This document shows positions 1,397 to 18,730 of a stretch of 21,134 nucleotides of DNA, in pieces; the stretch's first letter is position 1; every line of letters starts with the position of its first letter. The DNA comes from a virus. The notes below the pieces were generated by a model. The model did not search any database. It was not told where the DNA came from and saw only the letters and a list, made by a program, of their open reading frames with translations. Where the stretch lies: IMG/VR virus record IMGVR_UViG_3300037189_002495, positions 1 through 21,134 of that record, one strand, 5' to 3'. Made by a program: the position numbers and the translations under genes.

Positions 1397-4300
1397 ATGC
1401 CTTGTAGAATTAAGATAAAAGAGAACCTTGAAGAAGAAGTATATGACCTAGCAAGACCAGGTACATATGGGACTCCTAAACAAGCAAGGGAACTTGCTGT
1501 GCGCATAAACAGAATGTACAATGAGGGTGTTGTTAGATTCAATGTTTCTGAAGCTGACATTCTTAATATTGATGTGACAATTCCAGAGTCTTTAATTGAT
1601 AGGTACTATGACAACGAGTTAAGACTTGAGCAAGAAGAAGCAAGGCATGCACAACGAGCTGATGCTGAAAGAGCCGGTGTTGCTTATACAGATGAGTATT
1701 TGTTTCAAGACTCTATAACTAAACAACAAGATCCAATTGATTATGATTTAGAAATTGCTAAAGACTTTGAGATCTCTGTAAAGGCGTCACAAAGAGCAAG
1801 AAGCAATGAGATAGCTCAAAAGTTAGGTGAGAAGTTTAGTGGAGCATTCAATATGCCACACCAGATGATTACCTCTGATTATGCATTTGAGTTACTAAAG
1901 GATACTAAAACTCCGTATGAAGGGGAACCAGCATTTGTATTTAATAACATTGTCTACTTTGTAGATGGTAACTTCAACATCAACACAGTATTTCACGAGT
2001 ACTCTCACCCCTTTGTAAAAGCAATAGCAAAAGAGAACCCTGTATTGTTTAACAAGTTGTTTCTGCAGTTAGCTAATACTTATGCGGGTCAGGAAATCAT
2101 TGCTGATTTAACAAAGGAACAAGAGTCAAAGCTAGAATCAAAAAGACTTACCGGGGATAGATTCAAAGAAGAAGCTCTAGTAAGAGCAATGGAATATAAT
2201 GCTGCTAAAAAAGTAGATCAGATAGTAGAAACTGAGGCAGGATTCAAAGCATTCATTGCTAATCTACTCTATGCTATCAAACAAATCATCAAAAAGCTTG
2301 TAGGTAAAGTTGACTTAGGTAAGTTGAGTACATCTACAACTCTTGATGAGCTTGTAGACATGATGATGACCAAAGACTTCAGGATAGAAACAGAAGCGCT
2401 GATGGAATCTGATGTTGCAGAATTTACTAAGAAAGCAAAAACAGATATAGAAAAGTTAACTGATGAATTAAGAAGTGTAGATGCTCAGGATTTAATAGAT
2501 ACAATCAACATAGTTTATACAGGAGTTGACTATCAGTTAAAGCAGTTACAGGCTACTCCCCTTGATGTTCAGAAACTTTTAAGAAAAGGTCAGCAAGACG
2601 GTACTATTGATGGTCAAAGACTATTGCGCAATATCAAAAACTATTTAGGAAGTTCACAGACTGTTTATACAGAGATATCTGATGTAAGCCCTGATGATCT
2701 TATTGCAGCTATCAGAGCACAAGAAAAAGATTACACTAAGAGAGCAATCAATCTTATCAAGAGTATTAATGAGATTGAAGTCTTTGCCCGCAGAATTCAA
2801 AATATAGTAAAAGACATGCGTACCAAAAAGATCCATCTTAAACCAGATGGTATGGCTACCTTAGATTACTATATCTCTTTCATGGAATATCAGCAAAAGT
2901 TCTTAGATCAAATTCTACAGAAGCTGAATCTTGATGAAGAATCTGACTTTACCAAGAAGGTCTTGTCTATTGAGCGCGTACTTAAGAACTCATTAAGTGA
3001 TGCATTTAAACTGAGATTTGAGGGAATGGTTAATTGGTTTGAGGAACATGGAGATTTAGTTAATGAATCAATTCAAGGTAAACTTGAAAGAAAGTTATTA
3101 AAGGTTTTGGGTTCTCAAGGTTTTACTCCACAAGAAGTTAGTGATTATATTGATAAGCTTAAACAAAGAGATAACTTAGACAAGTTCTCTAAGGCAGATG
3201 TGGATTTAGGAAGACCTGTACAGGCAACTACAGTTATAGCCGCTGCTGTAAGAAACTTTGGAAAAAAATATATTACAAGCAAAAGTATTTCTAATGTACT
3301 TCAAGGTAGAGCGGGAGACATTGGTGTTATTGGTGCTAATGTTTTACCATATACAAACATCAATGATTCTATTGGTATCTTCTACAGAGAGATGAAGAAT
3401 GAGTTGTCTAATGCGGCAGCTAAGTCCCATCAACAAGAGATTGAGTTACTTAAAGCTATCATGCCTTACTTAAAACAAGTAGGCTATGATGCTAATAAAA
3501 CTCATATGCTTGCTGACCTTATGACCTTTGTGGATACAATTGCTGTAGTAGAAGACGGTGAGCTTAAAGAAATGAAGATCCGGTCTGTACTAGATAAGTT
3601 TAAAAACTGGCGTGCAGACAAAGGTAAACTAGAGTTTGCCTTAGAAGAAGCAAGAGATAGTAAAGATAAAACAGCTGTCAAAAAAGCCATGCAAGATCTG
3701 TGGGCTTTCCATGATAGGTACATGAACCGTAAATATAAAGATGAAGTATATCAGGTTCAGAATATTTGGAGACAGAACAATACAGTCTATGACCCGGTAA
3801 CTAAAACTAATATACTTGTAACTGCAGATGAATCTACTGAAGCTTATCTTGAAAGACAAGAAGCACTAGACCAGATGAGTTTGTATTCTTCTACTAGTGT
3901 GTTTACTGAGCTTGATGATATTTATGAAGAACCAGAATCTAAAGAAGCGCGTAGAGCTTATCAACAATTGTATGAGCTCTATGACTCTAATGGTGTAGAG
4001 AAGTCTGAGGATGAAAGAAAGAAGGTTCTTGTTAGACAACTATATAGAAAAGAGTCTAAGAAATTCTATGATTCAAAGACCAACTTTGACCAGTTCCAAA
4101 GAGACTTTGACAACTTTGTACTTACTGAACTTGCGGCAGAGGGTATTGATATGGATGATGTGGAGTTTGAAAAATATATCCAGAAGTTTGTAGCTAAGAA
4201 TACCCGTATTGCATATTCAGATAAATACTATGATGAGATGGAAGAGATCTTTGATAGAATCAAAGTCTTGACTGAAAAATCAAAGAACAATGCTGTGTCA

Positions 4301-7300
4301 TTACAGTTAGCTACTCTATACAAACAGAGAGCTATTCTAGTGAATGTGGTGTCAGATAAAAATAATACCCCTGATGGTGTTGAACTCAGCCCTGAACAAA
4401 GAAAGAAACTACTTGCTATTGAGAAAGAGATTGTAGTACTTCAAGAAAAGTTTGACAGACAAACAGGTATCAGCAGAGAGGATAAAGAATGGATGGTGGC
4501 TTTTGAGAAAAAGTTAAAACTTAAACAGCCGGTTACTCCAGAAGAGCAAGCTAAATACACTACTCTATTTAATATTCAAGATGACTTAGGTCTTAGTAAA
4601 CAAGAGTCTGCTCAATTGAAAAAAGCTTTTTCTGAACTTGCTGACCTTAGAGAAACTCAAGCTACTGACCAATATACATCTACATTTGATAATGTACTTG
4701 GTGACGCAACAGCTATCCTTGAAGAGAACGGTATGCTTGAGGCTAAAGACTATCCAGGTGAACAGATTGTACAGCTTACAAAAGAGAATGCAGATGAGTG
4801 GATTAACTCACCTATTCTTAAGAAAGTCATGGCTGTTAATCCAGAATTTGAAAAGTGGTTCAAGGCAAATCACTATACAAAGGATATGTATGACCAAGCA
4901 TCTAATACATACAGACCTAAGTATGTTAGATTAAAAGCTTGGAGTGTGACAAGACCAATAGATCCTGAGCACTATGAAATGACTAAGGTAATCAACCCTA
5001 TTACTAAAGAGCCTATCTATATTAAGGGTGTACCGGTTGGAAAGTATAGTTACCGCTCTATTAAAAATGAGTATCTCACTATACCAAGAGATGCTGATAG
5101 AGCAAGCTTTGTAGGAACAGTGATTGATAACCAAGGAAACTACTTACCAAAGGTGTATCCTATTGGTCACCCTAATGCTACTTATATGAATGAGGTTTAC
5201 TTTGATTTAAAGAAAAACCCAAATTCAGCAAGGTTCAAATTAATTGAAGAATATAAGAAGCAGTTCTTAAAAATCCAAGAAGACAGACCATACAGTTCTA
5301 AGTTGTATCTTGATGTACCAAGAATGCGTATTAACGCTAATCTTGAATATATACAATCTGGAAATGCAAGAGATGATGCTTATAGTAAATTAGCTCAATT
5401 GCAGACAGGTGTAACATCTATGTTTACATCAACAAAAGATGACCGTGAGTTTGGACTTAATGCTGATGTGACTACTCAACTTATTGCTACTGATATTAAT
5501 GGGAAGCCTATTACACGCATCCCGGTAAGAGCAATGTATAAGCTTGACATTAATGAAACTACTACAGATATCTTAGGTGTAACAAGTACATACTTGTATT
5601 CTCTAAATGAACAAGAGACTCTTATTAAAAATGAACCTCTTGGAAAAGCTCTTATCAAAATCCTGAGTGATCCTGAGAATGGATTGAAGGATATGAGTAA
5701 AGTAAGTAGAGATATTCAAAAGGTTAGGGGTGAGGAAGTATTTTTACCGTCTTCATCAAAGACATACCAGAGATTAAAGGCTAATGAATATTATGTAGAT
5801 AGATTGTTCTATGGACAAGCTACTTCAGACTTCCAACAGAATAATCCAGCCATAACCAAGCTTATTAAAGCTATGATGGGAAGAGCAAGTGCTTCCTTCA
5901 TTAACTTGGACCTTCAGTCAGCTTTGAAGAACCGTTATGGTATGACTTTCCAGAAGATGATTGAAACTGCTGGTGGTCAATATCTGAGCTATCAATCTAT
6001 GGCAAGAGGTAAGATAAAAGCTTTCAATACTACAGTAGAATTTTCTGCTAAAGGTATCTATCAGTTGGGACCTAAGAGCTTGAACATTCAATTGGTTGAA
6101 AGATTTGACCCAATAATTGGTAAAACAAAGAAAGACTTTGGTAAGTCTACTTCTAGAACCCGCTTCAAAGATTTGCTTGATATGACATTCATGTTGGATG
6201 CCAGAAAGCTTATGGAATTCAACAGTGGTCTTGAACTCTTCTTTGGGATGATGGAACACAAGCAGATAGAGATTACTAGACCTGATGGTAAAGTAGAAAA
6301 GATCCGCTATGTTGATGCATGGGAAATGGGTGATGATAGTATCATAAGACTCAAGCCGGGTATTAACCCTGAGTGGGATCACAAACCTATCAGCCATGAA
6401 TATGTAGCTGGGGAAACTCTGGAAGAACTGGCAAAAAAATATTCCACCACAGTAGCAGCATTGAAAGCTATAAACAAGATTTCAAGTACTGAAGAGTTGG
6501 AACCGGGGGATAAGATTGTTATATCAACCGCTAAGTTATTTAATGACTTCAAGCTTAAGATACAAGGTAGTGGTAAGAGATTAAATGGTCTTGTAGCTGA
6601 TGAAGATAGTGCACAAGCAAACCAGTATATCCTCTATAACTTATTCAGCTTCTACAAGAAGTTTGCTCTACCTATGTTCATGAACCGTTTCCAGACAGAC
6701 ATGTCCAAGGAAAACAGATGGGGTGAAGTATATGATTGGGATATGGGAACCACTACACGCGGATACTATATCACCGGTATACACTCAATCATTAAGTTGA
6801 TTAAGAACTTCAAGGAAGAATATCCTGCTATGGATGTAGAAGAAAAGACAGCTATCAAAAAGATAATGGCTGAGTCTATGATGCTCCTAGCATTTGCTCT
6901 TATAGGAACGCTCTTGTTTGGATATGATCCAGGAGATGAAGATAGATTTGATAAACTCAAAGCTATGGAAGAAAGATATGGTGCTTTAGGTTGGATGTCC
7001 AATGAAGCGCTTTATCTACTGATGATGACTAAGCGTGAGAACCAGATGTTTATTCCGTTGCCGGGTGTAGGATTTGATGAGTGGTTAAATCTACTTGACA
7101 GTACTTCAATTGCAACAGGACCTACATTAGAACTTTACTCTAAGATCTTTATGGATATCATTTACATGGTGACTGGTAGTGAGAAAGCAAGATACAAACA
7201 AGATGTGGGACCATACTCATGGCAAACTGAAGGAAGCCTCAAGCTACTTAATCACATAGGAAGTATCTTTGGTGTTAAAGGTAAGAACGTATCTCCTATT

Positions 7301-7342
7301 TGGGCTATCAAGAAAGCTGAAGCGTTTGATAATCTCAATTAA
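1397..7342 (+). CDS. Giant 1981-aa polyvalent/virion-cargo-like protein with zincin, LysM-like repeat and C-terminal hydrophobic segment
   Basis: One uninterrupted frame of 1981 codons starts at ATG 1397 and ends at TAA 7340-7342. HEYSH at residues 200-204 is an HExxH zinc-metallopeptidase signature, and EEAL at 258-261 fits the distal glutamate ligand seen in zincins of phage polyvalent proteins. The middle is mostly charged helix and probable coiled coil with no recognised catalytic motif. Residues about 1667-1710 (HEYVAGETLEELAKKY, ending EPGDKIVIS) read as a LysM-like repeat. A hydrophobic run at about 1829-1846 could be a membrane segment. No DFDxD-type RNA-polymerase motif was found, so it is not evidently the virion RNA polymerase known from crAss-like phages. 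Packaging and ejection with the DNA is plausible from size and neighbours but is inference. The protease could instead process the co-encoded giant proteins. Confidence 0.8.
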   Translation: MPCRIKIKENLEEEVYDLARPGTYGTPKQARELAVRINRMYNEGVVRFNVSEADILNIDVTIPESLIDRYYDNELRLEQEEARHAQRADAERAGVAYTDEYLFQDSITKQQDPIDYDLEIAKDFEISVKASQRARSNEIAQKLGEKFSGAFNMPHQMITSDYAFELLKDTKTPYEGEPAFVFNNIVYFVDGNFNINTVFHEYSHPFVKAIAKENPVLFNKLFLQLANTYAGQEIIADLTKEQESKLESKRLTGDRFKEEALVRAMEYNAAKKVDQIVETEAGFKAFIANLLYAIKQIIKKLVGKVDLGKLSTSTTLDELVDMMMTKDFRIETEALMESDVAEFTKKAKTDIEKLTDELRSVDAQDLIDTINIVYTGVDYQLKQLQATPLDVQKLLRKGQQDGTIDGQRLLRNIKNYLGSSQTVYTEISDVSPDDLIAAIRAQEKDYTKRAINLIKSINEIEVFARRIQNIVKDMRTKKIHLKPDGMATLDYYISFMEYQQKFLDQILQKLNLDEESDFTKKVLSIERVLKNSLSDAFKLRFEGMVNWFEEHGDLVNESIQGKLERKLLKVLGSQGFTPQEVSDYIDKLKQRDNLDKFSKADVDLGRPVQATTVIAAAVRNFGKKYITSKSISNVLQGRAGDIGVIGANVLPYTNINDSIGIFYREMKNELSNAAAKSHQQEIELLKAIMPYLKQVGYDANKTHMLADLMTFVDTIAVVEDGELKEMKIRSVLDKFKNWRADKGKLEFALEEARDSKDKTAVKKAMQDLWAFHDRYMNRKYKDEVYQVQNIWRQNNTVYDPVTKTNILVTADESTEAYLERQEALDQMSLYSSTSVFTELDDIYEEPESKEARRAYQQLYELYDSNGVEKSEDERKKVLVRQLYRKESKKFYDSKTNFDQFQRDFDNFVLTELAAEGIDMDDVEFEKYIQKFVAKNTRIAYSDKYYDEMEEIFDRIKVLTEKSKNNAVSLQLATLYKQRAILVNVVSDKNNTPDGVELSPEQRKKLLAIEKEIVVLQEKFDRQTGISREDKEWMVAFEKKLKLKQPVTPEEQAKYTTLFNIQDDLGLSKQESAQLKKAFSELADLRETQATDQYTSTFDNVLGDATAILEENGMLEAKDYPGEQIVQLTKENADEWINSPILKKVMAVNPEFEKWFKANHYTKDMYDQASNTYRPKYVRLKAWSVTRPIDPEHYEMTKVINPITKEPIYIKGVPVGKYSYRSIKNEYLTIPRDADRASFVGTVIDNQGNYLPKVYPIGHPNATYMNEVYFDLKKNPNSARFKLIEEYKKQFLKIQEDRPYSSKLYLDVPRMRINANLEYIQSGNARDDAYSKLAQLQTGVTSMFTSTKDDREFGLNADVTTQLIATDINGKPITRIPVRAMYKLDINETTTDILGVTSTYLYSLNEQETLIKNEPLGKALIKILSDPENGLKDMSKVSRDIQKVRGEEVFLPSSSKTYQRLKANEYYVDRLFYGQATSDFQQNNPAITKLIKAMMGRASASFINLDLQSALKNRYGMTFQKMIETAGGQYLSYQSMARGKIKAFNTTVEFSAKGIYQLGPKSLNIQLVERFDPIIGKTKKDFGKSTSRTRFKDLLDMTFMLDARKLMEFNSGLELFFGMMEHKQIEITRPDGKVEKIRYVDAWEMGDDSIIRLKPGINPEWDHKPISHEYVAGETLEELAKKYSTTVAALKAINKISSTEELEPGDKIVISTAKLFNDFKLKIQGSGKRLNGLVADEDSAQANQYILYNLFSFYKKFALPMFMNRFQTDMSKENRWGEVYDWDMGTTTRGYYITGIHSIIKLIKNFKEEYPAMDVEEKTAIKKIMAESMMLLAFALIGTLLFGYDPGDEDRFDKLKAMEERYGALGWMSNEALYLLMMTKRENQMFIPLPGVGFDEWLNLLDSTSIATGPTLELYSKIFMDIIYMVTGSEKARYKQDVGPYSWQTEGSLKLLNHIGSIFGVKGKNVSPIWAIKKAEAFDNLN

Positions 7343-11663: not shown

Positions 11664-12683
11664 CTACAATTTTACATTACCATTAGCTAAGTCATATGGT
11701 AAGGTATAATCCTTCTGCTCATAATGATAGTTCAATACATTAAGAAGTTCAGAAAAACTTTCCATCCACATGCTTAGTGTTTCCTCTGAAACTTGGAATG
11801 GATATACCTGATTGTACTTATCTATTACAATAAATGTAAACACAATCTTCCATTCATTAGCATCAGCTTTTTCTTTAATTAGATTGTTGAACCCCATAAT
11901 GCAGTAGATTGCCGCCTGAATATCATAGCGATAATACTCTACTGAGTCTGGGAAGCTTTGAATGGATTTGTTGGTTGTCTTAAGGTCATTGATAAATATA
12001 GTCTTAGTATTATCATCTACTACTATATTGTCTGCAAAGCCTTTCAGACCAAATTTGAAATCTGTAAGTTCCGTTTTGAGTGGAACCTCATTGTAAACGG
12101 TAACACCATTAGAGCCATCATGTCCCAACATTAGAAGTCCCATGACCCTGCCATCAGCTCTTAAGCATTCTACTGATTCTTCTGCCTTTGACTTTACAGA
12201 AGCATCAATAACTGTTTTACCTTGTTCTTTAACTTTGAGGAAATCAAAATATACCTTGTTATCAGTTGTAAGCATCTTCTCAATTCTTTGAGCATCTGTT
12301 TTGAGTGCTTGATAGAGATTATTTACGAGTAACTGATTGAGTATATCTGTGGGGAAGTCCTCCAAAGTTAATGATTCATTTTGCAATGGCAAGTAATTAT
12401 GATAGAAAATATGATCTAAAATTACTTTATTGCTTGCCGTAGGAATTTTCCCGGGAAGCATTACAAACTGATCATCAAATTTATCTGGCTCCAGCAATAG
12501 ACAGTGCAGTGCCCTACCTGCTATGAGGTGGGCATCTGTACTATCTTCTTTCTGGTTGAGAATGTAATGGTTGTAGAACCATCTTGGTGATGTTAAAAGT
12601 TTATTTATACCTGAGTAGCTAAAATAAAACTTCTCATTATAAAAACGGATCAAATCCTGATTCAGCTCTGTACTCAACGACAT
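11664..12683 (-). CDS. PD-(D/E)XK exonuclease (RecE/lambda-exonuclease/RecB-like fold)
   Basis: This 339-residue protein has the signature order of the fold: the helix YFSYSGINKLLTSPRWFY (20-37), GRALH (56-60), E199 (YNEVPL), GLKGFAD with D218, the core NDLKTT with D233 and K235, then YDIQAAIY with Q256. These match the E...GxxD...DxK...Q-x-x-x-Y pattern of phage 5'-3' exonucleases such as the RecE C-terminal domain. It probably resects duplex DNA for the Sak4-like annealing/exchange system encoded nearby, or processes replication ends. The assigned ATG lies inside the end of the 382-aa gene (47-base overlap). A shorter form starting at a later, non-ATG codon is possible because no other Met precedes the domain. 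Confidence 0.85.
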   Translation of the reverse strand: MSLSTELNQDLIRFYNEKFYFSYSGINKLLTSPRWFYNHYILNQKEDSTDAHLIAGRALHCLLLEPDKFDDQFVMLPGKIPTASNKVILDHIFYHNYLPLQNESLTLEDFPTDILNQLLVNNLYQALKTDAQRIEKMLTTDNKVYFDFLKVKEQGKTVIDASVKSKAEESVECLRADGRVMGLLMLGHDGSNGVTVYNEVPLKTELTDFKFGLKGFADNIVVDDNTKTIFINDLKTTNKSIQSFPDSVEYYRYDIQAAIYCIMGFNNLIKEKADANEWKIVFTFIVIDKYNQVYPFQVSEETLSMWMESFSELLNVLNYHYEQKDYTLPYDLANGNVKL

Positions 12684-13785
12684 CTTCTTCTATTTGGGTT
12701 TCTGTAACTTGTTCTACTGGTGTAAACTCTTGCAAAGGAATAACCAACTGCTCATTAAGCAACTTAGATATCTCTTCACTAAAAGTTATCCCATGTGGTT
12801 TGAAATAATCATGTCTGTCCATAAGAGTATCTTGATAGTGTTTAAGAACTATCTCCATGTTTTCTTTAGTAACAGCATTCTTTGCAATAAGAACTTTACA
12901 TACATCATCTTGATCAATACTACCTATTGTAACACCCAAGAATCCACAAAGAGCTTTGAAGTTGACATGGTTCCGGCTTCTTTGATTATACATCTTAGTA
13001 TCATACTCTTCAAACAATAACAGTAGATATACTAAGCTCTCAAGATAATTGGCATTAGCCATAATCTCCATTGCTAGTACATGATTATCAGTATCTCCAC
13101 TCTTGAACATATCAGATAAAGTAATGAACATTGTTTCATCTATGATAACAGCATCTGAACCATTGATATACTTAAGTAAAGCATCTTCATTATAGAGAGT
13201 AGCACCCTGATAAGTTTTGTATTCTTCTACATGCTCAGGCTTTACAAAATAAAACTGAGTGCTATTAATACTACCTTCAATGCGTATACCTACTGGAGCT
13301 TCTGTGAGCATCCTTGATGAACTATAGTTATCTACTAAAACAAGTTCATTCTGGTAGAACTCTAGAGCATCTTTTGCTTTTTGCAAGTAATAAGAATCAA
13401 TGTTTACATCAGGTACTAGACTATTTATGTATTCTCTGAATACTTCTGTTTTAATAGAATAAGACCATGAATAGTCAAACATAGCGCTATCAGTCTTATG
13501 ACCAATAAAGACTTTTGTTGCTTGTTCTATATCTCTGACAGACTTTACACCAAACTCAGAATAGATATTCTTCAGCTTTACTCTTGGTATAGTAACACCA
13601 GTAGCAAAGAATAACTTGTCTCCTTGCTGAATATCACATACACTTTCAGACTTAAGCTTAAATCTTGTATCAAATGATCCTTCAGTAACATCAACACCTA
13701 TTGCAACATTATAATTTGCAGCAGACTTGTTATTATACCATTCATGATTTGTAAGGTCAATAGTAAATTTTAAAAATGTTTCCAT
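12637..13785 (-). CDS. Hypothetical 382-aa protein with acidic FDPFL tail
   Basis: Family not recognised. The first 110 residues look beta-rich (FLKFTIDLTNHEWYN, NYNVAIGVDV, GDKLFFATGV). A mixed centre follows, then a helical C-terminal half (AMEIMANANYLESLVYLLLLF). The last 30 residues are acidic and end ESGFDPFL, comparable with SSDFFL of the DUF932-like protein and SSDFSLD of the SSB-like protein. There are no nucleotide-binding or nuclease motifs. It starts a transcription unit just after the hairpin at 13800-13827 and overlaps the exonuclease start by 47 bases. Partnership with the exonuclease is a reasonable inference only. Confidence 0.8.
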   Translation of the reverse strand: METFLKFTIDLTNHEWYNNKSAANYNVAIGVDVTEGSFDTRFKLKSESVCDIQQGDKLFFATGVTIPRVKLKNIYSEFGVKSVRDIEQATKVFIGHKTDSAMFDYSWSYSIKTEVFREYINSLVPDVNIDSYYLQKAKDALEFYQNELVLVDNYSSSRMLTEAPVGIRIEGSINSTQFYFVKPEHVEEYKTYQGATLYNEDALLKYINGSDAVIIDETMFITLSDMFKSGDTDNHVLAMEIMANANYLESLVYLLLLFEEYDTKMYNQRSRNHVNFKALCGFLGVTIGSIDQDDVCKVLIAKNAVTKENMEIVLKHYQDTLMDRHDYFKPHGITFSEEISKLLNEQLVIPLQEFTPVEQVTETQIEEDVVEYRAESGFDPFL

Positions 13786-13881: not shown

Positions 13882-15057
13882 TTACTTGACAGCCATCTTG
13901 ACTACCGCGCTGTTCATCATTAGCTTTTGCCACTTGACTTTGTTTCCATTGACAATTTCCTTAACCATGAAATACTTCAAGTCATCTGTGAATGAATCAC
14001 AGTCTGTAAGAAGTTTAATCATACGGTTAACCATTGCATCTGTAACAGTTTTGTCTTGTGAGTATACCAAACAATAGTTAATCAAGCGAGTTGCCATTAC
14101 ACTGGAAATATCAGCACGGAAATCATCTCCTGTACCAATAACAGAGTTCAACTGACCAACAACATAAGACTCATTTGGATTGTTGATCACATCACTTGGT
14201 GCAATGATTCTATCCATCTGATTGTTAATGAACATGGTGAACAAAGATGATACTTCTGGACCTACTGAACCTTCACCAATCATTTGGATAATTGGCAAAT
14301 CATCTTCAAATTTCTGGATAGAGCTGATAGAGTTAAAGAAAGTAGTAATAGCTCTTGGATTGACAGAAGTAGTTACTACCTCTGGATTCATCAACAAGAA
14401 GTTAATACATCTGCCGTCAATACCAACTGACTCTGCCCAACGAGCCCAAACCTTCTCATCAAACTTTACCTCAGTAGAGATAAATCTAGTCTTCTGAGCA
14501 ATGTCAAGACTGGTTACATTATAGTCACCATTGTCTGGATTGGTAGTCAATACAATATGCCAGTTCTTTGGGAGCTTCCAAGAGATATACTCTTGGCGGT
14601 CTATTAACTCCATAGTGGCTTGCATAAATCTTTGGTCAGCTCTGGTGTAGTCATCAAGAATCAAGAAGCCACCTTCTTGTTGTCCCTGAATCCATTCAGG
14701 AGCAGCATGTGACATTCTACTCTGGTTAGTTGGTCTAAATCCATTCTTTAGATATGTCTCAAGCAATGTTTCTTGAACCCATTTCTTATTACCTTCTCTG
14801 TTCTCAACCTCAAATTCTTTGAATGGAAAACCAACCAAGTCACCCAACTCCTCAATCTGGCTCAAGTTCAACTTGATTACAGCCATATTCATTTCTGCAG
14901 CCAACTGCATTAGGGAAGAAGTCTTACCCAAACCTGCATCACCCTCAATATTTACAGCTACAGGAACTTTGCCCTGAGCTTGGATAAACTGGTTATTCTT
15001 AACCATGTGTCCCAAAAATCCTTTTAATTCATCAATGTTCAATTGTACTTGGCTCAT
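13882..15057 (-). CDS. MoxR-type AAA+ ATPase
   Basis: This 391-residue AAA+ protein has Walker A GDAGLGKT (39-46), LGDLVGFPF (71-79), Walker B FLILDD (131-136, with Asp where Glu is usual), sensor-1 TTNPDNGD (171-178) and an arginine-finger candidate R191 in AQKTRF. The order and the LGDLVG loop fit MoxR-family ATPases, which work as chaperone-like remodelers with VWA-domain partners. The gene lies 11 bases downstream of just such a partner (15069-16298), supporting one complex. The C-terminal 200 residues are the helical lid and tail. The substrate is unknown; in a phage replication block it might be a replisome or host complex. Two hairpins follow the stop. Confidence 0.88.
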   Translation of the reverse strand: MSQVQLNIDELKGFLGHMVKNNQFIQAQGKVPVAVNIEGDAGLGKTSSLMQLAAEMNMAVIKLNLSQIEELGDLVGFPFKEFEVENREGNKKWVQETLLETYLKNGFRPTNQSRMSHAAPEWIQGQQEGGFLILDDYTRADQRFMQATMELIDRQEYISWKLPKNWHIVLTTNPDNGDYNVTSLDIAQKTRFISTEVKFDEKVWARWAESVGIDGRCINFLLMNPEVVTTSVNPRAITTFFNSISSIQKFEDDLPIIQMIGEGSVGPEVSSLFTMFINNQMDRIIAPSDVINNPNESYVVGQLNSVIGTGDDFRADISSVMATRLINYCLVYSQDKTVTDAMVNRMIKLLTDCDSFTDDLKYFMVKEIVNGNKVKWQKLMMNSAVVKMAVK

Positions 15058-15068
15058 AACTTTTCTTT

Positions 15069-16298
15069 TTATAATTCTAACTTAATCACTTTGCCCGGAA
15101 GGCTATCATTCATACTTGATCTTTCAGACAGCACCCACAATACTGGTGCTTTTGGAGTAACATTTGTCCAACATTCCCCATCAGTAAAATATACAAGGCT
15201 TGTATACTTTCTGAGATTGGCATTATAATATTCTAGGACGGGATCAAATTCAGTCCCACCTCTACCGTGTACTTCTAATCCTACTTTAGGATTGTAAGGC
15301 TCAATAGATTTAATTGTTGTATCACACTGGATAATGGTGACATCAACCCCGCATTTATGAATGTGAAATATCTCACTCATAAACTCTTTGAGTTCATCAT
15401 CACTTACGGAACCTGAAGTATCAATAGCCAACAACATATGTTGTCTCATCTTAATCTTCAGACCTGGATTGTCAGAGTATCTTCTGTTCTCTTTTCTTCT
15501 AAGTTTCTTAGTATAGATCTTAGTAGAGGTCCCGGTAAATCTTCTGACATAACCACGCCAATCAAACTTTGGCTTTTCAACTTGTGCAAGTTTATCAAGA
15601 TAAGCACTGATATTACCCGGTACATTACCTTTCTTCTTTACAGTTTGTTCTGCAGCTTCATTAAGAAGTCTGTCTAACTGTGTCTGAATAAGTTTCTGTT
15701 CTGCTTCAGGTAGGTCCTCAAACTCTTCCCAAGTACCGTGGTCAGGTAAATCTACATCTTTATCTATATTACCAGCACCCTTAATAGTTATAGTACATTG
15801 TCCCTGTTCTATACCATCAAGAAGCTTATCCATGTTCTCATTACCACAAGAACCATTCTTCTTCTTTTCTTCCTGAGCTTCTTTTAGCTTGTCATAATAA
15901 TAACGACAACCTGCTTTAAGGTCAAGATTCATGTCCGCATAGTCCTTGATATCAATACCACCATCTGGCAGATATTCATCATCAATATACTGATTGATCT
16001 CCATGTCCATGGCTATGTTAGCCAACTTGTGATCCGGAAACTTAAATACTTGACTCAAGTGAAAGAATGCAATATGCAGTAACTCATGCTTAAGTAAACC
16101 TACTTGATGTTTCTCAGATAACTTAGTCCAGAAATCTTCATTAATAGCAAGCTGATAGTTGATACCATTCTTGCTTACGCCAGCTGTAGGAACTTTGTTA
16201 GTCCACAGCTTGTTGAGCATGATGAGAAAGAAACCATAGAATGGCTCCTTCCACATAAGCTCTTTACTAGCTTTACCTAGTGAGTCTTGTTTACTCAT
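15069..16298 (-). CDS. DUF2201-like protein: putative metallopeptidase domain plus VWA-like domain
   Basis: The N-terminal half (1-220) contains VPTAGVSKNGINYQLAIN, the zinc-site motif HELLH at 71-75 and ANIAMDMEINQ (93-103), matching the DUF2201 metallopeptidase-like domain. DHGTW at 186-190 is also typical. The C-terminal half is VWA-like, with MIDAS residues in AIDTSGSVSD (D293, S295, S297), GRGGTEFDPV (T349) and YFTDGE (D373). It ends VLWVL and a short tail. Such proteins pair with MoxR ATPases, and one is encoded immediately downstream. The domain may bind metal-dependent ligands, with the ATPase remodelling a client; peptidase activity is unproven in the family. Its ATG overlaps the stop of the upstream 130-aa gene by 4 bases, indicating coupled translation. 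Confidence 0.88.
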   Translation of the reverse strand: MSKQDSLGKASKELMWKEPFYGFFLIMLNKLWTNKVPTAGVSKNGINYQLAINEDFWTKLSEKHQVGLLKHELLHIAFFHLSQVFKFPDHKLANIAMDMEINQYIDDEYLPDGGIDIKDYADMNLDLKAGCRYYYDKLKEAQEEKKKNGSCGNENMDKLLDGIEQGQCTITIKGAGNIDKDVDLPDHGTWEEFEDLPEAEQKLIQTQLDRLLNEAAEQTVKKKGNVPGNISAYLDKLAQVEKPKFDWRGYVRRFTGTSTKIYTKKLRRKENRRYSDNPGLKIKMRQHMLLAIDTSGSVSDDELKEFMSEIFHIHKCGVDVTIIQCDTTIKSIEPYNPKVGLEVHGRGGTEFDPVLEYYNANLRKYTSLVYFTDGECWTNVTPKAPVLWVLSERSSMNDSLPGKVIKLEL

Positions 16299-16687
16299 TT
16301 CTTTAGATTTATATTAATATCTAAACTCTCTACGGGGTAACCCATAGTTCCTAACATCCGAGTTAATTCAGCTACATGTCCTTCAAGGAACAGCTCAATA
16401 ATCTCAGGCTTAGTTTTCTTTTCAATCATAATTGTCAGACCTTTACCATAAGTAAGAGGCTCATTCATATTTACATACTTGTCCAGAATTTTGTAAGACT
16501 TTGGAGAATGTGTCTCCCAAGCTAACTTATCATATCTACTAAACTTGTAGAAATAGATAAGATATCCAATTTCATTTTCATTAAATGTGTGAGCATCAAT
16601 AGCCTGGAAAGCAATATGTGAATTGTCCTGGTCTTCTGACTGTAACATCTTCAAGATATTACATGCCTCTTGTCTGTTTAAAATCAT
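16295..16687 (-). CDS. Hypothetical 130-aa protein in the MoxR-VWA operon
   Basis: No family recognised. It is a small soluble protein with an N-terminal helix (NRQEACNILKMLQSEDQDN), an aromatic YLIYFYKFSRYDKL stretch and a C-terminal EGHVAELTRMLGTMGYP helix-turn. It lies 2 bases after the DUF6878-like gene and overlaps the VWA gene start by 4 bases (ATGA-type junction). This tight coupling makes it a candidate adaptor or substrate of the MoxR-VWA complex, which is inference from position. Confidence 0.75.
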   Translation of the reverse strand: MILNRQEACNILKMLQSEDQDNSHIAFQAIDAHTFNENEIGYLIYFYKFSRYDKLAWETHSPKSYKILDKYVNMNEPLTYGKGLTIMIEKKTKPEIIELFLEGHVAELTRMLGTMGYPVESLDININLKK

Positions 16688-16689
16688 AA

Positions 16690-17112
16690 CTATTTTGCTT
16701 TACTTAATAAATTACCATTGTGAAGACTAGTATCTGTTTCAGTAATGTAAATTGTATTAACAACTTTATATTTACCAGAAGGTACTAATATTGATACAGC
16801 ACCATAACCACCATCATCTTTCACCCAATTTGGAATGTCATAATCATATAAAAGAATAGTCAAAACAAAATCATGAAGGTCATTATGAGTATCAATATCT
16901 AGATCATCAAGATGCAAAGCAGTTGGTGAGTAAGTACTTATGCTATCAAGTTCATTAATAGCACGATCATCATCTGCATCTAATTTGTTTACAGTGTATA
17001 TAATATCATCAATTTGATAATCACCTCCACCACCTGAATATGTGACCAGAAGACCAGTCACGCCAAGGTCACCCAGCTTCAGTAAGAGGCTGGTAACTTC
17101 TATTTCTGTCAT
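16690..17112 (-). CDS. DUF6878-like small acidic protein
   Basis: This is a 140-residue acidic protein. The early LVTYSGGGGDYQIDDI segment (22-37) and the later NWVKDDGGYGAVSILV match, as I recall it, the pattern of DUF6878 proteins: a glycine-rich 'Y-GGGDSGQIED' element, a WxxxDGG(Y/F)G element and a beta-strand end. The function of that family is unknown. The gene begins 2 bases after the stop of the 56-aa ORF and stops 2 bases before the 130-aa gene, so it belongs to the MoxR-VWA unit. The family call is from memory and uncertain; that the gene is real is not in doubt. Confidence 0.7.
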   Translation of the reverse strand: MTEIEVTSLLLKLGDLGVTGLLVTYSGGGGDYQIDDIIYTVNKLDADDDRAINELDSISTYSPTALHLDDLDIDTHNDLHDFVLTILLYDYDIPNWVKDDGGYGAVSILVPSGKYKVVNTIYITETDTSLHNGNLLSKAK

Positions 17113-17114
17113 AC

Positions 17115-17285
17115 TTATCTTGAAATTAAATGATTGATAACTCTTTCCCAGTAATCCTTTTGTAACATAGGAGCAAGAGCTTTTGTAGCATGTGCAGAGT
17201 TTAATGCTTCTTTCTTGGCTTTTTCTTGACCATGAAGCTTTAGTGAATTGTTATACAATTCATCTGCTTTTTCTTTTGAACGCAT
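17115..17285 (-). CDS. 56-aa basic helical protein
   Basis: ATG at 17285 opens a 57-codon frame ending in TAA at 17115-17117. The protein begins MRSKEKADELYNNSLKLHG, is lysine-rich and almost entirely helical by eye, and ends DYWERVINHLISR. It exactly fills the gap between the GIY-YIG gene (stop at 17287-17289, one base before this ATG) and the DUF6878-like gene (2 bases after the stop). That spacing matches the rest of the operon and is the main reason to call it real. Function unknown. A small DNA-binding or host-modulating peptide is possible but unsupported. Confidence 0.75.
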   Translation of the reverse strand: MRSKEKADELYNNSLKLHGQEKAKKEALNSAHATKALAPMLQKDYWERVINHLISR

Positions 17286-17286
17286 A

Positions 17287-17712
17287 TTACTTTGTTTTGT
17301 AAAACCTACCTAAGATATTCCCATTGAGGAATTCTTCTTTCTCAAGTACTTCATGTTGAAATAAGTACTTTGTCTCTTGGTAAGTAAGCTCTGTGGCTGA
17401 ATAACAAATAGTTAGAATTTCACGGTGAATAATAATATTCCGCTTATGAGCTTCTTGTAAGACTTTATTACTGCTGTAATACTGTCTGTAGTTCAGTTTA
17501 GACTCTTTTGTGTACTTCTTAACTCTTTGATCTGTTAATGCTGCCAAAGCTTTTTTACCCATCTTCTTTTTAGTAACTGAGTAAAAGTTCTTCTTACCAA
17601 TGTATCTTACACATTTGCCGTCAATAATTGCAGTCATCATGTAAATGAATCCTACTGCTTCTTCAGGAATCATTGTATCCTTGAATTCTACATTTTTATA
17701 TATCCAACTCAT
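17287..17712 (-). CDS. GIY-YIG endonuclease (SegE-like)
   Basis: This 141-residue single-domain nuclease has FIY at 22-24 (the GIY position), YIG at 37-39, the YYSSN segment (78-82), the candidate catalytic glutamate E113 in TYQETKYLF and the ending NGNILGRFYK, which is typical of T4 SegE-like GIY-YIG proteins. There is no obvious separate DNA-binding domain. The start overlaps the last 17 bases of the primase gene, so it is translated within the primase operon. It may be a free-standing homing-type nuclease or may cut host or competitor DNA. Confidence 0.85.
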   Translation of the reverse strand: MSWIYKNVEFKDTMIPEEAVGFIYMMTAIIDGKCVRYIGKKNFYSVTKKKMGKKALAALTDQRVKKYTKESKLNYRQYYSSNKVLQEAHKRNIIIHREILTICYSATELTYQETKYLFQHEVLEKEEFLNGNILGRFYKTK

Positions 17713-18685
17713 CTAATAAAGATACTAATTTTTCCTTAACTTTAATAAGACCGTGAGCCTTGACTGAATCAGATAAATCCTTTTCCATATCAAGCACTAC
17801 ATAGCTAACACCATAGTTTTCCTGATACTTCTTAGCTGCTGCTATACCCGGTTCATCATTGTCAAACAAGACAATAACCCTGTTAAATCTTTGCTTCAAT
17901 ATATGCATACCAGTTTTAGTAATCATACTGTTTTCACTGTCTGGAGCAATAGATTGATAACCCTTTATTCCAAGTTTCCTAAATGCCATCAAATCTTTGA
18001 GAGATGAAGTAATAATCAAAGCATCACAGCTACTAGATACTAACTGATCAGAACCCTGTGTGTAATTCTCAACCTTGATAAACTTCTTTTCTTGATTCTT
18101 GGGCATGTAGATCTTGTATAAAGAACCATCTTGCCGAAAATAACCATAGACATACTTTCTGTTAAAGGTCATAGAAGTTACTTTACCATCAAGTTCTGTC
18201 TTCTCCATAGTAAAGAACTCTAGAGGAGATACATTGTAGTGCTCTAAGAGTTTAGAACCTATCTTGTAACTCATCCAATAAGCCTCATCAAGATTAGTCC
18301 AGTGTCTGATTTCATAATCTACTACTTTGAACTTATCATGAATCTGATACTCTGTAGTTACTGTGATGTTATTATCCTTGACATAGGCTTCATAGTCTGC
18401 TACAATTCTGTTTACAGCATTAGCATAAGTTCCTAAGTTATACAACTGCATAACAAGTGCAATATGATCACCCTGATAACCTGAAGAAAAATCCTTGAAC
18501 TTATACTGACCACTGTTGGTATCAAAGTAGATAAACATGGACGGTACTTTGTCACTAGAATTAAATGCAGAAAGAATCTTTACATCTTGACCGGTAAGTT
18601 TCTCTTTGAGATTGAGATAGTGCTCAAACACCCATTCTCTTGGCACATCATTTATGCCACCAATAAAAGTCTTTGTTGAAATCAT
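17696..18685 (-). CDS. TOPRIM-fold DnaG-like primase
   Basis: This is a 329-residue protein. The N-terminal part (PSMFIYFDTNSGQYKFKDFSSGYQGDHIAL, 48-77) follows the CHC2 zinc-binding-domain outline but has none of the cysteines. The C-terminal part is TOPRIM: ALIITSSLKDLMAF (222-235), then VIVLFDNDEPGIAAA (270-284) with the D275/D277 metal pair. Where most TOPRIM domains have an invariant Glu (VEGxxD), this protein has Ser (TSSLKD, S227). It would make RNA primers next to the DnaB-like helicase encoded upstream. The start at 18685 follows a hairpin terminator. Divergent activity or a different role, such as a nuclease, cannot be excluded. Confidence 0.82.
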   Translation of the reverse strand: MISTKTFIGGINDVPREWVFEHYLNLKEKLTGQDVKILSAFNSSDKVPSMFIYFDTNSGQYKFKDFSSGYQGDHIALVMQLYNLGTYANAVNRIVADYEAYVKDNNITVTTEYQIHDKFKVVDYEIRHWTNLDEAYWMSYKIGSKLLEHYNVSPLEFFTMEKTELDGKVTSMTFNRKYVYGYFRQDGSLYKIYMPKNQEKKFIKVENYTQGSDQLVSSSCDALIITSSLKDLMAFRKLGIKGYQSIAPDSENSMITKTGMHILKQRFNRVIVLFDNDEPGIAAAKKYQENYGVSYVVLDMEKDLSDSVKAHGLIKVKEKLVSLLDELDI

Positions 18686-18702: not shown

Positions 18703-18730
18703 AAAAGGGGGAACCTAAAGACTCCCCCTC
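18703..18730 (-). terminator. Hairpin terminator between the SSB-like and primase genes
   Basis: AGGGGGA at 18706-18712 pairs perfectly with TCCCCCT at 18723-18729 around a 10-base loop. On the minus strand TTTTCTATTAAATTT follows. This is the same arrangement as the hairpin before the polymerase gene (CCCCTTTTCTAT). Confidence 0.75.

Follow-up and report, generated by a model that had tools for sequence, protein, structure and literature searches.

Phage-encoded pairs of a MoxR-type AAA+ ATPase and a protein with VWA and metallopeptidase domains have been described before, and we compare them here with a locus on a 21,134-nucleotide (nt) virus fragment, IMG/VR record IMGVR_UViG_3300037189_002495 (the window, that is, the whole stretch of DNA analysed). 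In this locus, genes for a MoxR ATPase and a DUF2201/VWA protein (MoxR and VWA below) are flanked by genes for a 130-amino acid (aa) protein, p130, and a 382-aa protein, p382. The phage N4 genes gp24 (AAA+ ATPase) and gp25 (vWFA) belong to the 14 core genes of N4-like phages, where they are listed as 'unknown' and 'vWFA domain' (PMC4193335). In group 2.2 jumbo phages the pair was reported by Iyer 2021, who interpreted MoxR and the VWA protein, with its N-terminal metallopeptidase fusion, as chaperone and co-chaperone and proposed a function in virion assembly with proteolysis (PMC7824862). The MoxR-VWA pair is thus of an already known kind, and the statement in the initial annotation of this DNA that no close functional precedent exists was wrong for the pair. 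What is new is the p130 family and the domain common to p130 and p382, which offer two client or adaptor candidates for the pair in the window's lineage. The reading we favour, tentatively and at a little below even chances, is that of a protein-remodelling or -cleavage machine serving the replication-recombination complex, with p130 as a translationally coupled partner.

The gp24/gp25 pair and its Schitoviridae homologues resemble that of the window in matching the MoxR family profile at E~1e-5 and the DUF2201/VWA profile at E~1e-16, the latter with HExxH and metal ion-dependent adhesion site (MIDAS) motifs. They differ in that MoxR comes before VWA, that p130, p382 and the ~35-residue element discussed below are missing, and that these phages are podoviruses of another lineage. 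The jumbo phages also have no p130 or p382, and whereas their pair was assigned to virion assembly, that of the window sits in a crAss-like replication block. The architecture of a MoxR AAA+ protein plus a VWA partner is shared by RavA-ViaA, NorQ-NorD and CbbQ-CbbO. To our knowledge, none of the VWA partners in these systems has been described with a DUF2201 HExxH domain. A further difference is that their clients are metabolic enzymes (PMC9976466). The VMAP/iSTAND/FtsH ternary conflict systems of Kaur 2020 have MoxR, VWA and a third protein in each operon, and their helical adaptor domains (EADs) recur across proteins (PMC7159879). Although the locus resembles them both in having a third protein and in a small, predicted helical domain that recurs among proteins, these systems are host-encoded, whereas the locus is phage-encoded and gave no PADLOC match. 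With no VMAP, iSTAND, FtsH or effector domain found among the neighbouring proteins by Pfam, and thus no third component of the bacterial ternary systems, the earlier suggestion of a conflict system is unsupported.

The MoxR-VWA pair and its conserved neighbours

The initial annotation had named five minus-strand open reading frames (ORFs), for a 56-aa protein (p56), a 140-aa protein (p140), p130, VWA and MoxR. All five were confirmed together with their junctions, namely 2-nt gaps between p56 and p140 and between p140 and p130, a 4-nt overlap of p130 with VWA (ATGA) and an 11-nt gap between VWA and MoxR. They are real genes, since their ratios of nonsynonymous to synonymous substitution rates (dN/dS) against close relatives are 0.07-0.62. 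The module as then drawn ended one gene too early, before p382, which bears the p130 domain. The main features are:

16295..16687, minus strand: p130, all-helical protein, 130 aa (synteny in relatives, AlphaFold2 model)
16574..16687, minus strand: ~35-residue element at the p130 N-terminus (consensus xxEExxNLxxMLxSxDxDNxxLAxxxI, E=5.5e-17)
15069..16298, minus strand: DUF2201 putative metallopeptidase and VWA protein, 409 aa (phrog_1314, Pfam, motifs)
16074-16088, minus strand: HELLH motif of VWA, residues 71-75
15408-15422, minus strand: MIDAS motif DTSGS of VWA, residues 293-297
13882..15057, minus strand: MoxR-type AAA+ ATPase, 391 aa (phrog_1297 E=1.9e-35, conserved motifs)
14920-14943, minus strand: Walker A motif of MoxR, residues 39-46, GDAGLGKT
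12637..13785, minus strand: p382, 382 aa, the gene after MoxR, with a p130-like domain at residues ~215-324
12814..13143, minus strand: p130-like domain within p382 (profile comparison)
13039-13146, minus strand: p382 copy of the ~35-residue element (element search)

Both catalytic proteins retain their motifs. The Walker A and R191 of MoxR had been correctly recognised; R191 does not vary among family members or the aligned homologues from cultured phages, Walker A, N173, R191 and R235 are conserved, and the AAA+ motifs (Walker A/B, sensor, Arg finger) are intact. The Pfam AAA_5 model scored 17.2 bits on the window's MoxR, below the cut-off (E=1.6e-5), and above it in 2 of the 10 records searched. 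The description of VWA as a DUF2201-like HELLH and VWA protein likewise held, as DUF2201 (E=7e-19) and DUF2201_N (E=3.6e-17) both match above the cut-off, DUF2201 doing so in 15 of 15 records. Across 104 members of the family aligned with 11 cultured phages from other lineages, the MIDAS residues D293, S295, S297, T349 and D373 have a conservation of 1.00, and the HExxH residues H71, E72 and H75 and a second motif (N94, A96, D98, N102) are invariant or nearly so. The N-terminal part of VWA is accordingly predicted to be a zinc protease with HExxH and a further conserved ligand motif. PHROGs labels the VWA family (phrog_1314) 'HNH endonuclease' and the MoxR family (phrog_1297) merely 'ATPase'; the annotation derived from phrog_1314 is widespread, but the sequences instead match DUF2201 with HExxH and MIDAS motifs. 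Homologues of VWA occur in 364 catalogued phage records, many of them N4-like, and none was found among bacterial genome contigs with the patterns used.

Strong purifying selection acts on MoxR (dN/dS 0.07-0.13) and VWA (0.12-0.14), at values close to those of the neighbouring primase (0.09-0.15) and exonuclease (0.11-0.14), finite estimates only being considered here and below. In several relatives the two genes carry insertions of ~0.3-1.2 kb in catalytic motifs: two sites are in MoxR, one splitting Walker A (GDAGL|GKT) and one following Walker B (LDDYTRAD|), and two are in VWA, within HEL|LH and at AMD|MEIN, the second metal-ligand motif. Rfam recognised group I introns at three of the four sites, both MoxR sites and the AMD site, and did not recognise the HEL|LH insertions as such. 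As mobile introns typically settle in the most conserved codons, insertion at four catalytic motifs points to strong constraint on both activities. The insertions were seen in MoxR of contigs L013, L020, L055, L198, L227, L273, L283, L289 and L297 and in VWA of L109, L118, L180, L195, L196 and L206, and several of the recognised introns bear GIY-YIG ORFs.

Gene order was counted among distinct relatives with a full-length VWA and enough flank, all from a single lineage, so that the counts are not independent events. p130 lies upstream of VWA in 143/143, abutting or overlapping it in 139 (with overlaps of 4, 8, 11, 14, 23, 26 or 29 nt) and separated in the other four by a ~870-nt insertion, which is a homing-endonuclease-like ORF where examined. 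MoxR follows within 60 nt in the same direction in 107 of 126 relatives, the checked exceptions carrying insertions or introns, and p382 is downstream of MoxR in 85/85. In a scan seeded with p130 alone, VWA and MoxR followed in the returned contigs wherever the contig was long enough. The genes around this core are:

17696..18685, minus strand: Toprim DNA primase (Pfam; crAss-like best matches)
17287..17712, minus strand: SegE-like GIY-YIG endonuclease (Pfam E=5.3e-21)
17115..17285, minus strand: p56, 56 aa, small accessory gene of a minority of relatives (ORF, relatives count)
16690..17112, minus strand: p140, 140 aa, DUF6878 family, fast-evolving accessory gene (family profile, dN/dS)
11664..12683, minus strand: RecB/Exo VIII-like exonuclease, downstream end of the conserved block (Pfam, PHROG, synteny)

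These neighbours come and go to different degrees. The SegE-like gene is found in 92/98 relatives, p140 in 94/98 and p56 in only 20/98, and the deeper relatives L079 and L111 keep p130 and have no p140. The window copy of p140 scores 15.0 bits against DUF6878 (E=0.024; cut-off 24.3 bits), while all 70 aligned members of its family match, the best at 1.1e-18. A very conserved DUF6915 gene, with no homology to p140 or p130, is present in 90/98 relatives, mostly sited between those two genes (e.g. L002 2119-2460); the window lacks it, as do a few of its close relatives. The proposed five-gene module therefore stands for the MoxR-VWA couple with p130, and not for p56 or for the fast-evolving p140. 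Of the small genes, which might have varied freely beside a constant MoxR-VWA, p56 does so and p130 alone stays, and a sixth small gene, DUF6915, is absent from the window. Judged by gene content, a better module would be p130-VWA-MoxR-p382 with the exonuclease next to it, p140 and p56 being accessory.

The small genes also evolve faster than the pair, with dN/dS of 0.15-0.32 for p130, 0.13-0.32 for p56, 0.28-0.41 for p382 and 0.40-0.62 for p140. The DNA of p130 is 93% identical to that of one close relative and 67% to that of another, between which VWA and MoxR differ little. Over window positions 16295-17712, compared with L087/L163 and L085/L169, SegE, p140 and p130 alleles appear swapped between close relatives; primase, VWA, MoxR and exonuclease are uniform across them, and the SegE-like endonuclease lies at the edge of the mosaic. 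From this identity pattern p130 and its upstream neighbours recombine, perhaps via the adjacent endonuclease. Such fast evolution and mosaic alleles, together with the gain and loss of DUF6915 and p56 among close relatives, would suit a machine for host takeover or counter-defence, in which p130 and the DUF6878, DUF6915 and 56-aa genes would act as variable adaptors aiming MoxR-VWA at host proteins. We consider this rather unlikely, as p130 is never lost and its domain recurs in a phage protein, p382, PADLOC found no match, and the mosaic pattern may stem from co-conversion by the SegE-like endonuclease; while content differs among close relatives, the core is retained.

The domain common to p130 and p382 and a recurring short element

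The AlphaFold2 model of p130 is all-helical, with seven helices (mean pLDDT 91.3, pTM 0.85). Profile searches assigned p130 to no Pfam or PHROG family, its model had no structural neighbour in the PDB (best E 0.82), and in BFVD it gave weak matches (prob 0.72-0.99) to phage proteins of 360-396 aa, one named crAss-like, which serve as a lead only. No p130 homologue was found in cultured phages by tblastn, nor, by profile, in the N4-like and other cultured phages bearing the pair, and p382 has no homologue in cultured phages either. The p130 profile does match p382 at residues ~215-324 (hmmsearch E down to 1e-11), and profile-profile comparison with hhalign aligned the two over 109 columns (prob 96.6, E=6e-10), with the common core M-x-x-S-x-D-x-D-N. 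The MoxR-VWA pair is therefore flanked by two genes sharing one domain. Apart from this p130 domain within p382, no Rosetta-stone fusions were found among p130, VWA, MoxR and p382. The N-terminal domain of p382 had no fold match; BRCT (PF00533) was rejected for it, with 0/15 records at E<=10 and positive control genomes, and a PDB profile match to 'NrN' (E 0.005) was discarded as low-complexity.

The first ~35 residues of p130 recur alone in a 134-194-aa protein whose gene, in those contigs that were checked, is ~10 kb away from the operon. The same element is found in proteins of 90-119 aa encoded ~1.5-2 kb from the terminase in related contigs, some of them just before it. These small proteins (L234 407-1031, L237 688-1029, L246, L248) carry the element at their end, and p130 carries it at its beginning. 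Beyond p130 and p382, most of the related genomes searched encode 1-3 further proteins with it. In whole-record searches all 4 records of the lineage had it, the window fragment with 2 copies and the three large contigs with 3-5 each; 15 other phages had none, neither the 7 crAss-like or Flavobacterium phages nor the 8 from the MoxR-VWA group. By this sequence search, the element is specific to the window's lineage.

That the element follows the lineage rather than MoxR-VWA, being absent from those 8 MoxR-VWA phages and from the 7 crAss-like or related phages, is what one would expect if there were no special link at all, with p130 a passenger inherited upstream of VWA and its domain a common helical scaffold of the lineage. 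The common descent of all 143 relatives fits as well. However, p130 has been kept next to VWA under purifying selection despite heavy turnover of the adjoining genes, its gene overlaps the VWA start codon, and a homologous domain is encoded on the other side of the pair, so that we regard mere passage as quite improbable.

Genomic context and possible clients

From its sequence, the window is assigned to an uncultured environmental Crassvirales lineage, as a crAss-like phage fragment. The best catalogue matches of its Toprim primase are crAss-like phages, and cr1_1 and cr272_1 (Suoliviridae) carry homologues of polymerase, DnaB, Sak4, primase and exonuclease in a similarly arranged replication block. 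Among 11 related contigs of 106-122 kb, crAss-type TerL (large terminase subunit) was found in 10 (E 4e-38 to 8e-46) and the crAss-type capsid protein (MCP) in 9. The window itself is a fragment without TerL or MCP, and its Crassvirales hallmarks are the replication gene order and those of the related contigs. On the minus strand its genes run in the order DnaB-like helicase (partial), 174-aa protein, Sak4-like protein, 225-aa protein, Toprim primase, SegE-like GIY-YIG, p56, p140, p130, VWA, MoxR, p382, exonuclease, two small genes, DNA polymerase and 397-aa protein. The location inside a replication block was thus rightly called, since the SegE-like gene and primase lie upstream and the exonuclease and DNA polymerase downstream.

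Outside the lineage, VWA has dda/DNA helicase and/or DNA polymerase as its neighbour in several unrelated phages (XC38, PYO2, JA-1, pYD6-A, SonariX and Moorella phages), and in other crAss-like phages (Uncouvirinae) a CobS-like MoxR adjoins the same primase. From these three contexts, primase and exonuclease in the window, helicase or polymerase in other phages and primase in Uncouvirinae, we infer a client in replication. By analogy with NorQ/NorD (PMC9976466), MoxR would form a hexameric ATPase ring, and the VWA domain would plug this ring and use its MIDAS metal site to grip the client. Remodelling of the client would be driven by ATP turnover, and the fused N-terminal HExxH domain could clip it, the machine presumably being expressed together with the replication-recombination genes. 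p130 would be a dedicated third component in contact with VWA or MoxR, produced in step with VWA via the gene overlap. As the p130 domain is repeated in p382, the simplest reading is that it may serve as a docking or client module; p382, on the exonuclease/polymerase side, would then probably be the platform or client and p130 a free adaptor or competitor.

Several points weigh against this replication machine. The dN of p130 is about three to five times that of MoxR, which together with its mosaic alleles is odd for a tightly co-evolving subunit. p130 is also dispensable for the machine in general, because profile searches found no homologue of p130 in N4-like and other cultured phages that carry the pair. 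Finally, virion assembly has been proposed for the same pair (PMC7824862), and element-bearing proteins are encoded just before the terminase.

This proposal and these terminase-side proteins make virion assembly or maturation, in which MoxR-VWA would remodel and clip structural proteins, a serious rival, although on balance we think it unlikely. Besides the jumbo-phage proposal, this reading draws on a parallel to the pair that acts in tail assembly of Acidianus two-tailed virus, and N4-like roseophages have the genes of four virion proteins close to their gp24/gp25 homologues (PMC4193335). Yet in the window and its relatives the locus lies between primase and exonuclease, away from the terminase/capsid block, in several other phages it is beside helicase or DNA polymerase, and N4 gp24/gp25 are middle genes (PMC4193335). 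In a doubtful extension, to which we give little weight, the element would be a lineage-specific docking tag, by which a single MoxR-VWA-metallopeptidase machine would recognise several phage proteins from both the replication and packaging blocks, p130 acting as adaptor or competitor. It would cover p130, p382, the 134-194-aa protein and the terminase-side 90-119-aa proteins, as a phage-encoded adaptor/tag system for remodelling or proteolysis.

No paper on crAss-like phages with MoxR-VWA was found in the literature searched. crAss001 (gp77, Prok-JAB-like, and gp76, ThiF) and Uncouvirinae resemble the window in having protein-remodelling or -modifying genes by the primase in the Crassvirales replication block; they differ in that other protein families are used, with no DUF2201/VWA or p130 profile match in the regions examined. 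In crAss001 the primase-to-exonuclease interval (gp76-gp78, L253 10654-14325) holds a Prok-JAB-like metalloprotease and a ThiF (E1-like) protein. After the CobS-like MoxR of Uncouvirinae comes a partner of 264-267 aa with a CbbQ/NorQ-like annotation (L251 503-2459, L257 6567-8518, L255 1-1536); judged by eye, this partner might not be a second ATPase but have a VWA-like fold that lacks MIDAS.

In the window, an Rfam scan gave no match, and a promoter/terminator scan performed no better than on shuffles. A terminator-like hairpin with an 11-pair stem lies between the 225-aa gene and the primase (18705-18730, minus strand), at a kind of site no commoner than in shuffles. Two genes face the opposite way, a kinase-like gene and one for a 1981-aa protein (1397-7342, plus strand), which has a weak LysM match and faces the replication genes.

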